From Anseongella ginsenosidimutans (GTDB taxonomy: Bacteria; Bacteroidota; Bacteroidia; Sphingobacteriales; Sphingobacteriaceae): DNA of 64,000 nt. The DNA is taken from contig NZ_CP042432.1 of the NCBI RefSeq assembly GCF_008033235.1, positions 1,798,001-1,862,000 on the forward strand, given 5' to 3'. Positions within the stretch are counted from its first letter, which is position 1. Each line of letters begins with the position of its first letter. Shown piece by piece: positions 2,655 to 50,605 of this stretch. The notes below the pieces were generated by a model that saw nothing but the letters and a program-made list of their open reading frames with translations, had not been told where the DNA came from and searched no databases. Made by a program: the position numbers and the translations under genes.

Positions 2655-3743
2655 ATGAATTTTACAGCCTTTCACCGCCTTCATGAGCAGCTAGGGGCCA
2701 AAATGGTGCCTTTTGCAGGGTTTTCCATGCCGGTGCAATACGAGGGAATCTCCGCCGAACATGAAGCGGTAAGAAAAGGAGTGGGCGTATTCGATGTTTC
2801 CCATATGGGTGAATTTATCTTAAAAGGGGAAGGTGCCCTTGATCTTGTGCAGTACGTGACTTCCAACGATGCTTCGGTCCTTGTTGACGGAAAAGTACAG
2901 TATTCCTGTTTGCCCCAGGAAAACGGCGGGATCGTGGATGACTTACTGGTTTACCGGATTGATGAAAAGACGTATATGCTGGTAGTAAATGCCGCAAACA
3001 TCGGAAAAGATTGGGCCCACCTGTCTAAATATAATCGTTTTGATGTAGAAATGATCGATATTTCCAGCCGGACTTCCCTGCTGGCGGTGCAGGGGCCCCT
3101 GGCGGCTGAGGCCCTTCAGCCCCTGGCGGAAATAGACCTTCGTGCTATGGAGCATTATACGTTTAAAAAGGGAGTATTTGCCGGCATTAGCAATGTACTG
3201 GTCTCTGCAACAGGCTATACCGGTTCAGGAGGCTTCGAAATTTATTTTGAAAAAACGCATTCGGAAGAAATCTGGAAACGTATATTTGAAGCAGGCGCGC
3301 CCTACGGGATAAAACCTGCGGGGCTGGGCGCCCGGGATACGCTGAGACTGGAAATGGGCTTTTGCCTTTATGGCAATGATATTGATGATACAACCTCGCC
3401 CCTGGAAGCAGGGCTGGGCTGGATCACGCGTTTCACAAAAGACTTTGTAAATTCAGCTAACCTGCAGTTGCAGAAGGAGAAAGGAGTAAGCCGGAAGCTG
3501 GTGGGCTTTGAAATGCTCGAAAGGGGCATTCCCCGGCAGGGCTATGAAATAACGGACAAGGAGGGGGCGCTTATCGGGAAGGTTACTTCCGGAACACAGG
3601 CGCCTTCGCTGAGAAAAGGAATTGGAATGGGATATGTACAAAAGGCCTTCGCAAAGGAAGGAACGCTGTTGAATATTCTGATCCGGGGCCAGGCCGTGGG
3701 CGCCCGGGTGGTTAAACCGCCCTTTTATAAAGCCGGCCAGTAG
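2655..3743 (+). CDS. gcvT: Glycine cleavage system T protein (aminomethyltransferase)
   Basis: T protein of the glycine cleavage system: it transfers the methylene group from the aminomethyl-lipoyl arm of the H protein to tetrahydrofolate, releasing ammonia. The 362-residue length is normal. The N terminus has [13 protein letters not shown] and the folate-site block [10 protein letters not shown] (about 47-56); further on come [32 protein letters not shown] and the C-terminal RKGIGMGYV of the family barrel. gcvH and gcvP are not adjacent in this window, as is common in Bacteroidota. A consensus TAnnTTTG box lies upstream, so it is probably transcribed from its own promoter. Confidence 0.95.
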
Positions 3744-14319: not shown

Positions 14320-14372
14320 TGATCTCCAACTTATCTTTTGCTTATTTGAAAATCCGGTGACTGTCCGAATCC

Positions 14373-14471
14373 GCTTATCTGCTCCGCCTTTCGCGGATAG
14401 AATTTAGCACCTTGTTGGCACAGGTTGCTAAGACTTCGCAGGGTCTACTCCCTCCGTCTTTCGTTATAAGC
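14373..14471 (-). promoter_or_regulatory. SAM-I (S-box) riboswitch upstream of metH
   Basis: The minus-strand leader matches the SAM-I aptamer. P1 is formed by GCTTAT at 14466-14471 and ATAAGC at 14373-14378. The P2/kink-turn strand has ACGGAGGGA, followed by GAAGTCTTAGCAACC and the core motif GGTGCTAAATTC. P4 is CCGC-GAAA-GGCGG with a GAAA loop, closing with AGATAAGC. Order and spacing of all conserved blocks agree with the family. SAM binding should lower expression of metH and probably metF. About 100 nt separate the aptamer from the ATG and no clear terminator follows, so control may be at translation. Confidence 0.93.
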
Positions 14472-14535
14472 AGGACAAATGTAGGGGTTTTAATTGAGAT
14501 AACCTAACGGGATTTCGCTTTAAGGCGGCTTTTGA

Positions 14536-19528: not shown

Positions 19529-19556
19529 CTCGCTTGGGCTTTCGGGCTTCGAAGGA

Positions 19557-19664
19557 CGCAGATTTTGGCGGGCCTGCGTCGCTCCGCTGATTTTTGGGGC
19601 CCCGGTTGCTTCGCACCCGCCCAAAAATCAAAGTCGCTCCTTCAGGCCCGCACAAAATCTGCTT
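19557..19664 (-). repeat. Double-stem palindromic element, copy A
   Basis: An imperfect palindrome of about 108 bp. The outer arms are CGCAGATTTTGGCGGGCCTG (19558-19577) and its near-complement in 19643-19662. The inner arms are TGATTTTTGGGGC (19588-19600) and GCCCAAAAATCA (19619-19630), with an apical module between them that includes TTGCTTCGCAC. An AGCGAC/GAGCGA-like asymmetric segment separates the stems. It is 28 bp downstream of phoU. Confidence 0.75.
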
Positions 19665-19704
19665 CTATTCGAAAGCCTGTAGCCCGCGCTCACCATTTTC
19701 AATA

Positions 19705-20395
19705 TTGGTTTGCCTTCGCTTTGCTCGGCAGTTGAGGAGTTGAATTGCCTTCGCTTCGCTCGGCAGTTGAGGAGTGTTTGCCTTCGCTTCGCTCGGCAGT
19801 TGAGGAGTTGAATTGCCTTCGCTTCGCTCGGCAGTTGATCAGTTGAGTGAGATTGCCTTTGCTTCGCGGTTGTTGAGTTGGTTGAATGCCTTCGCTTCGC
19901 TCGGCAGTTGATGAATTGAATCTTTCATTCATCTCCGGTTCATCATAACTAGGCTGACAGACACACACAGACGTAGTGGCACTGATTGGGGTTGGATGGC
20001 CTTTGCTTCGCCAGGCGGTTGGCGGGTGCTTGGTTTGCCTTCGCTTCGCTCGGCAGTTGAGGAGTTGGGTGAGATTGCGTTTGCTTCGCCCTGTCGTTGG
20101 CGGAGCGACTTGCCTTCGCTCGGAGTCTGATAACTTGAGTGAGATTGAATTGTTTTGCCTTGTGGTTGATGAGTTGGGCTGAATGTCTTGCCTTGTGGTT
20201 GAGTTGGGTTGGATTGCCTTTGCTTTGCTTGGCGGTTGTTGAGTTGGGCTGAATTGTCTTGCCTTGTGGTTGATGAGTTGGGTTGGATTGCCTTTGCTTT
20301 GCCTGGCGGTTGTTGAGTTGAATGTCTTGGCTTGATTGGGTTGAATTAATTGGTTTGAGTTGAATGTCTTGGCTTGAGGGGGCTTTGCGACGTGG
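19705..20395 (+). repeat. G/T-rich degenerate tandem array
   Basis: Around 15-18 units of about 30-40 bp. The best-conserved core is TGCCTTCGCTTCGCTCGGCA followed by GTTGAGGAGTTGAA. The units are close to identical at 19709-19835, less so later, and become a loose run of TTGAGTTGG and CCTTGTGGTTGA motifs after 20100. The core has GCC at one end and GGC at the other and could form a short hairpin. The plus strand is strongly G/T-rich. A non-repeat insert with a CACACACAGAC stretch lies at about 19925-19980. There is no credible coding sequence. Confidence 0.8.
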
Positions 20396-20456
20396 AACTG
20401 GGGATTTAAATCTTCAATTTGAAATGGGGGAGGGGACGGATGTCGTGGGCTGGCCA

Positions 20457-20565
20457 GCGGAATTTTGCGTTGTCCGCAGCGAGCGACTTTTGATTTTTAG
20501 GGCGGGCGCGTAGCGGCCGGGATCCTAAAAATCAGCCTGAGCGAGACCGGACAACCAAAATCCGC
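20457..20565 (+). repeat. Double-stem palindromic element, copy B
   Basis: A 109-bp palindrome of the same family as copy A, in opposite orientation. Outer arms: GCGGAATTTTGCGTTGTCCG (20457-20476) with CGGACAACCAAAATCCGC (20548-20565). Inner arms: TGATTTTTAGG (20491-20501) with CCTAAAAATCA (20524-20534). Conserved unpaired-looking segments are CAGCGAGCGACTT and GCCTGAGCGAGAC. The apical module contains GGCGGGCGCGTAGCGGCCGG. Confidence 0.8.
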
Positions 20566-20598
20566 GCCGTGCAGGAGGCCAATACCACCACCCACCAT

Positions 20599-20658
20599 TA
20601 AAACTCTAAACTTTAAACTCTAAACCTTAAACCATAAACTTTAAACTTCAAACTAAAA
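20599..20658 (-). repeat. Heptamer repeat array downstream of the 189-residue gene
   Basis: Minus-strand reading after the stop codon: a short leader GGCTTCGCAATCG and then eight 7-bp units such as TTTGAAG, TTTAAAG, TTTAGAG and TTTAAGG. Same family and same relative orientation as the arrays at 4.5, 10.5, 37.5 and 39.7 kb. Confidence 0.8.
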
Positions 20659-20671
20659 CGATTGCGAAGCC

Positions 20672-35942: not shown

Positions 35943-36015
<73 letters not shown>

Positions 36016-37311: not shown

Positions 37312-37436
37312 GGCGGTAGATGGGCCGTTTTAGCGTACCCGCCGTCGCTCAGGCTTATTTTCAGTACCCCAGGCGTTTCGAACCCGCCCCTGAAAATCAA
37401 CCATTGCTCCCTTCGGCCCCGCCAAAACCTACCGCC
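37312..37436 (-). repeat. Double-stem palindromic element, copy C
   Basis: A third long copy of the palindrome family, between uxuA and the MFS gene. The outermost arms are GGCGGTAG (37312-37319) and CTACCGCC (37429-37436), extended by TTTTAG/CAAAACC. The inner arms are TTATTTTCAG (37355-37364) and CTGAAAATCAA (37390-37400). The conserved GTCGCTCAGG segment and an apical GGCGTTTCGAACCCGCCC module are present. Confidence 0.7.
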
Positions 37437-37442
37437 ATCACC

Positions 37443-37659
37443 CCTCCGTAAACAATCTTAAACCTTGAACTTCAAAACTTTGCGCTTTAAACTACAAACT
37501 TCAAACCCTGAACTTGAACTTTAAACTTTAAACCTTGAACCTTCAAACCTTGAACCATGAAACCTTGAACCATGAAACCTTGAACCTTGAAACCTTGAAC
37601 CTTGAAACCTTGAACCATGAAACCTTGAACCTGAAACTATAAACTTGAAGGATTCAAGT
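37443..37659 (-). repeat. Heptamer repeat array downstream of the hexuronate MFS gene
   Basis: On the minus strand, units such as AGGTTCA, AGGTTTCA and AAGTTTA follow one another for over 200 bp. Part of it (about 37535-37630) has a regular 15-bp (7+8) rhythm with GGTTCAAGGTTTCA(T/A). Sense orientation relative to the MFS gene. Together with palindromic copy C it fills the 377-bp gap; there is no gene. Confidence 0.85.
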
Positions 37660-49626: not shown

Positions 49627-50310
49627 CGCCCCTTCCCTCCGCACGGCGCGGGATTTGCTTTACCCGGACTCGCTCAGGCGATTCTTGCGCCGTCGCGCAA
49701 GAATCAACATCGCTCGCTGCGGGCAAAGCAAACTTCCGCTGCCCACCGCACATAACCAGAACTTTTGCCTTTGAAGCAATGCAAACGATGGCGGGCGCGC
49801 TTCCCGCTACGTTCGACACGCCGCGAACGATCCGTGATCATTTCTTATTGCAAGGAAAAGTGGATGGGAAAAGTGGGCCGGGAGGCGCCCCGGGCTGGCC
49901 AGTGCCCCCTTCCGCACGTCGCGGGATTTGCTTTACCCGGACTCGCTCAGGCGATTCTTGCGCCGTCGCGCAAGAATCAACATCGCTCGCTGCGGGCAAA
50001 GCAAACTTCCGCTGTCCCACGCACATAACCAGAACTTTTGCCTTTGAAGCAATGCAAACGATGGCGGGCGCGCTTCCCGCTACGTTCGACACGCCGCGAA
50101 CGATCCGTGATCATTTCTTATTGCAAGGAAAAGTGGGTTGGAAAAGTGGGCCGGGAGGCGCCCCGGGCGGGCCAGTGCCCCTTCCGCACGTCGCGGGATT
50201 TGCTTTACCCGGACTCGCTCAGGCGATTCTTGCGCCGTCGCGCAAGAATCAACATCGCTCGCTGCGGGCAAAGCAAACTTCCGCTGCCCCACGCACATAA
50301 CCAGAACTTT
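49627..50310. repeat. Three tandem copies of a ~272-bp repeat
   Basis: The marker GCGGGATTTGCTTTACCC occurs at 49648, 49921 and 50193, giving pitches of 273 and 272 bp. Each unit contains a palindromic element (copies D1-D3), then a shared segment with CACATAACCAGAACTTTTGC, GGCGGGCGCGCTTCCCGC and GATCATTTCTTATTGCAAGG, then GGGAGGCGCCCCGGGC. Copies are nearly identical except for single-base changes and small indels. The third copy diverges after about 50310, and a partial fourth piece is recognisable at 50394-50440. The open frames that run through the array on both strands reflect its base composition and are not genes. Confidence 0.9.
49648..49738 (-). repeat. Palindromic element, copy D1 (D2 and D3 in the next two repeat units)
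   Basis: Outer arms GCGGGATTTGCTTTACCC (49648-49665) and GGGCAAAGCAAACTTCCGC; inner arms CGATTCTTGCGC and GCGCAAGAATC with a CGTC tip. The conserved internal segments are ACTCGCTCAGG and CATCGCTCGCTGC, the complements of those in copy B. Identical arms recur in the units at 49921 and 50193. Short variant without the apical GGGCGGG module. Confidence 0.8.
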
Positions 50311-50439
50311 TGCCTTATGAAGCAATCAGACGATGGAGAGGAGCGCACCCGCGCTAATCTGCAAGCCGCGACAATTTAGAATTTCTTAGATAGAAAAGTG
50401 GATGGGCAAAGTGGGCTGGGAGGCGCCCCGGGCGCTGGC

Positions 50440-50605
50440 CTGCCCGCAGCGAGCGATGTTGATTCTCCGGAATGGAGAATCGCCTGAGCGAGACCGGGCG
50501 GGCCAGTGCCCCCGGCGCCGCGCGCGAATGCCGCGAGGCGATGTTGATTCTCCGAACGGCGAGACCGGGCGGGCCAATGCCCCGGCGCCGCGCGCGAATG
50601 CCGCG
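50440..50605 (+). repeat. Palindromic elements E1 and E2 with a short tandem GC-rich unit
   Basis: E1 (50442-50503) has CCCGCAGCGAGCGATGTT, an inner hairpin GATTCTCC-GGAAT-GGAGAATC, and GCCTGAGCGAGACCGGG. A shortened copy E2 follows at about 50538-50565, and GCCGCGCGCGAATGCCGCG occurs after each. Orientation is opposite to D1-D3. The 1094-bp gap between 49551 and 50644 is filled almost completely by these repeats; there is no gene. Confidence 0.75.

Follow-up and report, generated by a model that had tools for sequence, protein, structure and literature searches.

A dispersed palindromic repeat of the genus Anseongella with covarying arms, probably renewed at the level of DNA

The genome of Anseongella ginsenosidimutans harbours a family of long dispersed palindromes, seven of which lie in the window, i.e., the whole 64-kb stretch of DNA analysed, where the fold is conserved and the sequence of the arms is largely free, the conserved part being a tandem-G.A module on one strand. 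By the tests made, the repeat belongs to no named family and in its behaviour is closest to a dispersing palindrome of the REP type with arms renewed at the DNA level; taken as a whole, this explanation, in which the repeat is a genus-restricted, dispersed palindromic DNA element of ~90-115 bp with REP/MITE-like behaviour, is considered probable. Covariation is commonly read as proof of a functional RNA, but here it is extreme in the absence of the G.U signature of RNA and is accompanied by DNA-like behaviour. As such, the repeat provides a natural test case separating RNA selection from replicative copying of arms, as well as a caution for covariation-based RNA discovery.

The orientation of a copy is defined by the strand carrying AGCGAGCGA/TGAGCGAG, so that copies A, C and D are the reverse complements of copies B and E. 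Copy A (19557-19666, minus strand) comprises an outer stem, the tandem-G.A module, the inner stem TGATTTTTGGG and the apical GGGCGGGTGCGAAGCAACCGGGG (78.0 bits with R1), and copy B (20454-20567, plus strand, i.e., the canonical orientation; 104 bits) exhibits the inner stem TGATTTTTAGG together with the apical module common to A and C. Copy C (37322-37436, minus strand; 81.4 bits) sits between two tandem genes, namely an MFS transporter gene and uxuA, and the orthologous site in the sister species is empty. With the short inner hairpin GATTCTTGCGC, copies D1 (49647-49742), D2 (49920-50015) and D3 (50192-50287), all on the minus strand, are near-identical tandem duplicates with a unit of ~272 bp and are thus counted once as evidence. 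Copy E (50424-50514, plus strand), with the inner hairpin GATTCTCC and an orientation opposite to D, adjoins the 3' end of a convergent gene and has a broken tandem remnant, E' (GCGAGGCGATGTTGATTCTCCGAACGGCGAGACCGGGC..., 50533-50583, plus strand). All seven copies named in a preliminary description of this DNA are present, its outer and inner stems and the arms it quoted are correct, and the apical module it attributed to A, B and C is indeed common to them. The genes neighbouring the tested copies are ordinary, encoding PhoU, UxuA, MFS, OEP, amidohydrolase, TamB and topoisomerase IB. Degenerate repeats of the TTGCCTTCGCTTCGCTCGGCAGTTGAGGAG type extend over ~700 bp from copy A to copy B (19690-20380) and resemble a low-complexity stretch at another locus (GGCTCGCTTCGCATCGCTGGCGGGG; L083, ~3150-3400), and simple-repeat arrays of the TTTAAACTTTAAACC / TTGAACCTTGAAACC kind adjoin copies B (20598-20660) and C (37450-37640), the latter array being missing in the sister species. 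The window further contains a SAM-I riboswitch (RF00162, 68.8 bits; 14372-14472, minus strand) and a tRNA (35943-36015).

On the canonical strand, the first half of the element reads as an outer arm of ~20 nt, CAG-[CGAGCGA]-nTT, an inner arm beginning with TGATT and, in the long type, an apical hairpin, while the second half consists of the complementary inner arm, GCCT-[GAGCGAG]-nCC and the complementary outer arm; letters flanking the module vary, as does the G that precedes the left bracket. The two conserved segments had been viewed as spacers separating the stems. Instead, CGAGCGA set opposite GAGCGAG gives C-G, G.A, A.G, G-C, C-G, G.A and A.G, i.e., a helix in which Watson-Crick pairs close two tandem G.A steps and themselves covary. 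In 48 copies, the closing pair of the G.A helix is C-G in 28, A-T in 6, T-A in 5 and G-C in 2, the central pairs of the module covary in isolated copies (A-T in L093:3087 and L118, T-A in L095), and the G.A and A.G steps are retained in 40-46 copies. Sheared G.A steps in tandem are known to be stable when they follow a pyrimidine. Since the complementary strand shows C/T mismatches at the G.A places, the element is polar; in folding with DNA parameters, the preference for one strand amounts to a trend (p=0.07).

As for the arms, they were described from the outset as changing together between copies, and covariation indeed lies far above shuffles in two alignments. In a genome-wide alignment of 50 copies, changes occur on both sides in 32 of 33 pairs, the double-changed cells number 429 against 130.2 +- 8.7 in shuffles and the covariation score is 0.657 against 0.178 (0/500 shuffles in each case), while sliding the register by one base lowers the paired cells from 90% to 39-46%. 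This alignment was fitted to the structure, and a MAFFT alignment of 13 hand-chosen copies agrees with it, with double changes in 64 cells compared with 22.9 +- 3.6 in shuffles (0/500). Pairing is independent of the divergence of an arm from the consensus (rho -0.13), with 93% Watson-Crick even in the third that is least conserved, and in some copies (L091:3080, L118 and L082) the arms are unrelated in sequence yet fully paired. Between nearest-neighbour copies, double changes from one Watson-Crick pair to another outnumber one-sided differences in the outer stem (36 versus 23) as well as in the inner stem (56 versus 20), making 92 paired versus 43 one-sided differences in total. Such a pattern is consistent with that expected of a palindrome maintained by template switching, where paired changes would arise simultaneously without one-sided intermediates.

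Whether RNA or DNA is the level of upkeep can be approached from the mismatches. RNA stems accept G.U and reject A.C; respective to the strands, a G.T on the canonical strand corresponds to a G.U in one transcript and an A.C to a G.U in the other. Among 1252 cells of the repeat stems, 1156 are Watson-Crick, 36 G.T and 30 A.C (binomial p 0.54), i.e., the excess of G.U expected of a structured or cis-regulatory RNA is absent, and a second method with an independent alignment gave 1512 Watson-Crick, 26 G.T and 24 A.C. By comparison, in 15 tRNAs from the same DNA, 291 of the 317 drawn pairs are Watson-Crick and 26 are G.U, with zero A.C in the vertical stems. As G.T and A.C are about equally frequent in the repeat, unlike in the tRNAs, the residual mismatches resemble fresh, strand-symmetric transitions and upkeep at the DNA level is favoured over RNA selection. 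Compensatory change had been ascribed either to selection on the structure or to a mechanism of copying that preserves it; it was right to allow for the second option, which the mismatch spectrum places above RNA selection.

A structured RNA or an RNA 3'-end element, such as a terminator or an mRNA stabiliser, under ordinary compensatory selection on transcripts would suit the strong hairpins, the RNA folding energies slightly favouring the canonical strand and the location of assignable copies -3 to 131 nt past the upstream stop codon with a preferred orientation. Such an explanation is nonetheless improbable, as G.U does not exceed A.C on either strand, a terminator T-run is found next to 3 of 48 hairpins only, the preferred transcript would bear the complement and hence not the G.A module, at one locus (L099) the element is placed beyond a terminator that the sister species also conserves, and Rfam has no match inside the copies. 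Considering the candidates listed in the preliminary description, a REP/MITE-like element and a position near the 3' ends of genes stand, whereas a structured RNA and a 3' terminator lose ground.

Building a covariance model and searching genomes with it, as had been proposed, was done first with a model from 13 copies and then with a second one from 50 matches, and revealed ~48 copies, including the seven of the window, in the complete 4.32-Mb genome. Two loci (L117 and L118), each of them an array, were found in a sister species of the same genus. Among 201 genomes sampled from the family, matches were restricted to these two genomes, and phages, plasmids and viral contigs contained zero relatives of the repeat; together with the lack of an Rfam match, this agrees with the earlier statement that no named element corresponds to it. 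A pattern scan of the whole collection returned 11 single matches in unrelated phyla, none with the outer arms or the extended inner stem, which were judged to be chance. A weak model match in another genus (G042, L119:3063-3140), a long hairpin between convergent genes, was rejected for want of the G.A module.

Where both flanks could be found in the sister species, 13 of 14 orthologous sites are empty, some of which could be losses in that species. At L098, for instance, two genes lie 5 bp apart in the sister versus ~520 bp here, and at L090 a 306-bp stretch of 72% GC interrupts otherwise alignable sequence, this clean insertion being larger than the element and displaying no visible direct repeat (target-site duplication). 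One locus is shared (L097/L117), and its right outer arm is not the same in the two species, CGGATCCGCCAAAAACC versus CGGCTGCCCCAAAAACC. An outer arm of sequence GCAAGGCTTTGATTGCCCG, slightly varied in some copies, recurs in eight places at unlinked loci with at least four different types of inner hairpin, so that the inner hairpins act as exchangeable modules. In the same expanded intergenic region as one family copy, there is also a different perfect palindrome, GACCTTGGGGTATTCGC-gatga-GCGAATACCCCAAGGTC (L110, ~2770-2815).

Copies lie just downstream of genes and mostly between convergent genes: 17 of 36 intergenic regions with a copy are convergent, compared with 13 of 138 regions without one (p=1.3e-6). 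An upstream gene could be assigned to 38 copies, of which 28 are antisense to that gene and 10 are not (p=0.005); because genes were called with our own scoring of ORFs, individual assignments may be erroneous. This orientation bias is moderate and a selected role at 3' ends would predict the same bias; no orientation linked to the replichore is apparent. When two oppositely oriented copies occupy one region, their order is always minus then plus, and in convergent regions one copy lies near each gene end. The view of such pairs as one composite element was rejected, the spacers between paired copies sharing no sequence. A rival explanation likens the repeat to the BIMEs of E. coli, i.e., a selected DNA site, cruciform or bound by a protein, that would handle supercoiling or transcription collisions between convergent genes, selection on the DNA hairpin yielding the compensation. 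The eightfold enrichment in convergent regions, the constant minus-plus order with one copy beside each gene and a tolerance for Watson-Crick pairs only, which suits a DNA structure, speak for it. We regard it as unlikely, given that the need cannot be general when 13 of 14 sister sites lack the element and that in L082, L091 and L118 selection alone would need to reconstruct entire arms of unrelated sequence.

Respective to known systems, REPs, REPINs and BIMEs associated with a RAYT are likewise intergenic, dispersed and palindromic, occur as inverted pairs and tandem clusters, and form subfamilies with complementary stem changes (PMC3733652, PMC3116915). The present repeat differs in its size of ~110 bp (90-115) with two or three nested stems, REPs being 20-40 bp long, in the tandem-G.A module standing in place of a GTAG/CGTC foot, in nearly free arm sequence, in having no preference for G.T, and in the lack of a Y1 transposase in the two members of the genus searched. 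As such, membership of the REPs fails on the tag, the size and the transposase. A GTAG or CGTC tetranucleotide lies near the hairpin foot in at most 4 of 48 copies, and the Y1 tyrosine transposase (PF01797), present in 13 of 21 genomes searched, numbers 0 in both this genome and the sister; the RAYT-like partner gene suggested earlier was thus looked for in these two genomes and is absent. A REP family mobilised by a RAYT (TnpA-REP) since lost from the genome would explain why tens of palindromes lie between genes, in part as inverted pairs and tandem clusters, and why their stems and loops form mosaics, as in known REPs (PMC3733652), and Y1 transposases do exist in the relative set. It is very improbable, however, considering the missing foot, an element three to five times the usual length, the missing Y1_Tnp and the G.T pairs, which are not enriched here, unlike in GTAG REPs (PMC3733652).

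Like the attC sites of integrons (PMC2727003), which are recognised as folded single-stranded DNA, the repeat forms imperfect hairpins with poorly conserved sequence and strand polarity, but it is dispersed singly or in pairs rather than in a cassette array, and RYYYAAC/GTTRRRY boxes are present in the arms of 0 of 48 copies (2.4 expected by chance). With MITEs and other bacterial stem-loop repeat families (PMC2267715), it shares being a short, non-coding, dispersed repeat able to fold; it differs by having no shared terminal sequence, its terminal arms being the most variable part; the outer arms are inverted repeats but not the conserved terminal inverted repeats of a MITE. Membership fails for attC on the boxes, for structured RNAs on the G.U test and for intrinsic terminators on the T-run. 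Correction of quasipalindromes by template switching (PMC8794818, PMC7202029) accounts for instantaneous paired changes and for perfect stems without G.U intermediates, but it is known from sporadic mutations, whereas in the present case an entire dispersed family would be subject to it. Overall, the earlier interpretation is partly supported: the structural family with compensatory arms, its REP/MITE-like character and its location near 3' ends stand, the spacers and the suggested RAYT partner do not, and the structured-RNA and 3'-terminator candidates are weakened.

In the favoured explanation, i.e., a REP-type palindrome renewed at the DNA level, each copy would fold on one strand into the outer stem, the tandem-G.A helix, the inner stem and, in the long type, the apical hairpin. 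New copies would arise by insertion, and a putative enzyme, for which no candidate was found, would probably recognise the polar single strand in its folded form. From the pattern of changes, one arm may be rewritten from the other during replication, through template switching or hairpin-templated repair, and paired changes would then arise at once without G.T intermediates; template switching has a published precedent as a cause of immediate compensatory change (PMC8794818). The bias to 3' ends and convergent regions may combine a target preference with the removal of insertions elsewhere, with a possible secondary role in supercoiling or transcription collision at convergent regions. More speculatively, the repeat might be a mobile single-stranded DNA element defined by its shape, where a genus-specific putative enzyme would recognise, within a long hairpin, the module of tandem sheared G.A steps and fold-back synthesis would let the arms rewrite themselves, the palindrome even extending into the end of the neighbouring gene; this we put forward as tentative. 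Should the polar G.A module be the recognition site of an enzyme, it would represent an undescribed route for moving palindromes without RAYT transposases.

Some copies also exhibit a third, outermost helix. Flanks beyond the outer stem are complementary above chance, with a mean score of 9.03 versus 7.47 +- 0.25 in permutations (maximum 8.49 over 5000) and 14 of 48 copies at p<0.05. For copy A, the left arm (19536-19553), just after the phoU stop, pairs with the right arm (19668-19685) with 72% complementarity (p=0.027). The stop codon of an adjacent gene is often included in the arms of the third helix (L106, L105, L114 and L083). The sister species conserves the gene end at L114 and L084 and lacks the inverted copy there, and at L106 it already has part of the repeat. 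A third helix arising in every case as a fresh inverted duplicate of a gene end fits L114 and L084, and L106 not clearly. Palindromes may lengthen outward by copying, or the element may insert into hairpins that were already there; some REPs have been reported inside larger palindromes (PMC3733652). Group II introns were also considered as carrier or partner and rejected, no copy of the repeat being near any of them. Five such introns of ~1.93 kb, near-identical (99.7-99.9%) and with a reverse transcriptase (L183-L187), are located in the genome (G000) at 807100, 1488524, 1989696, 3898706 and 3983983, and two of them directly adjoin tRNA genes.
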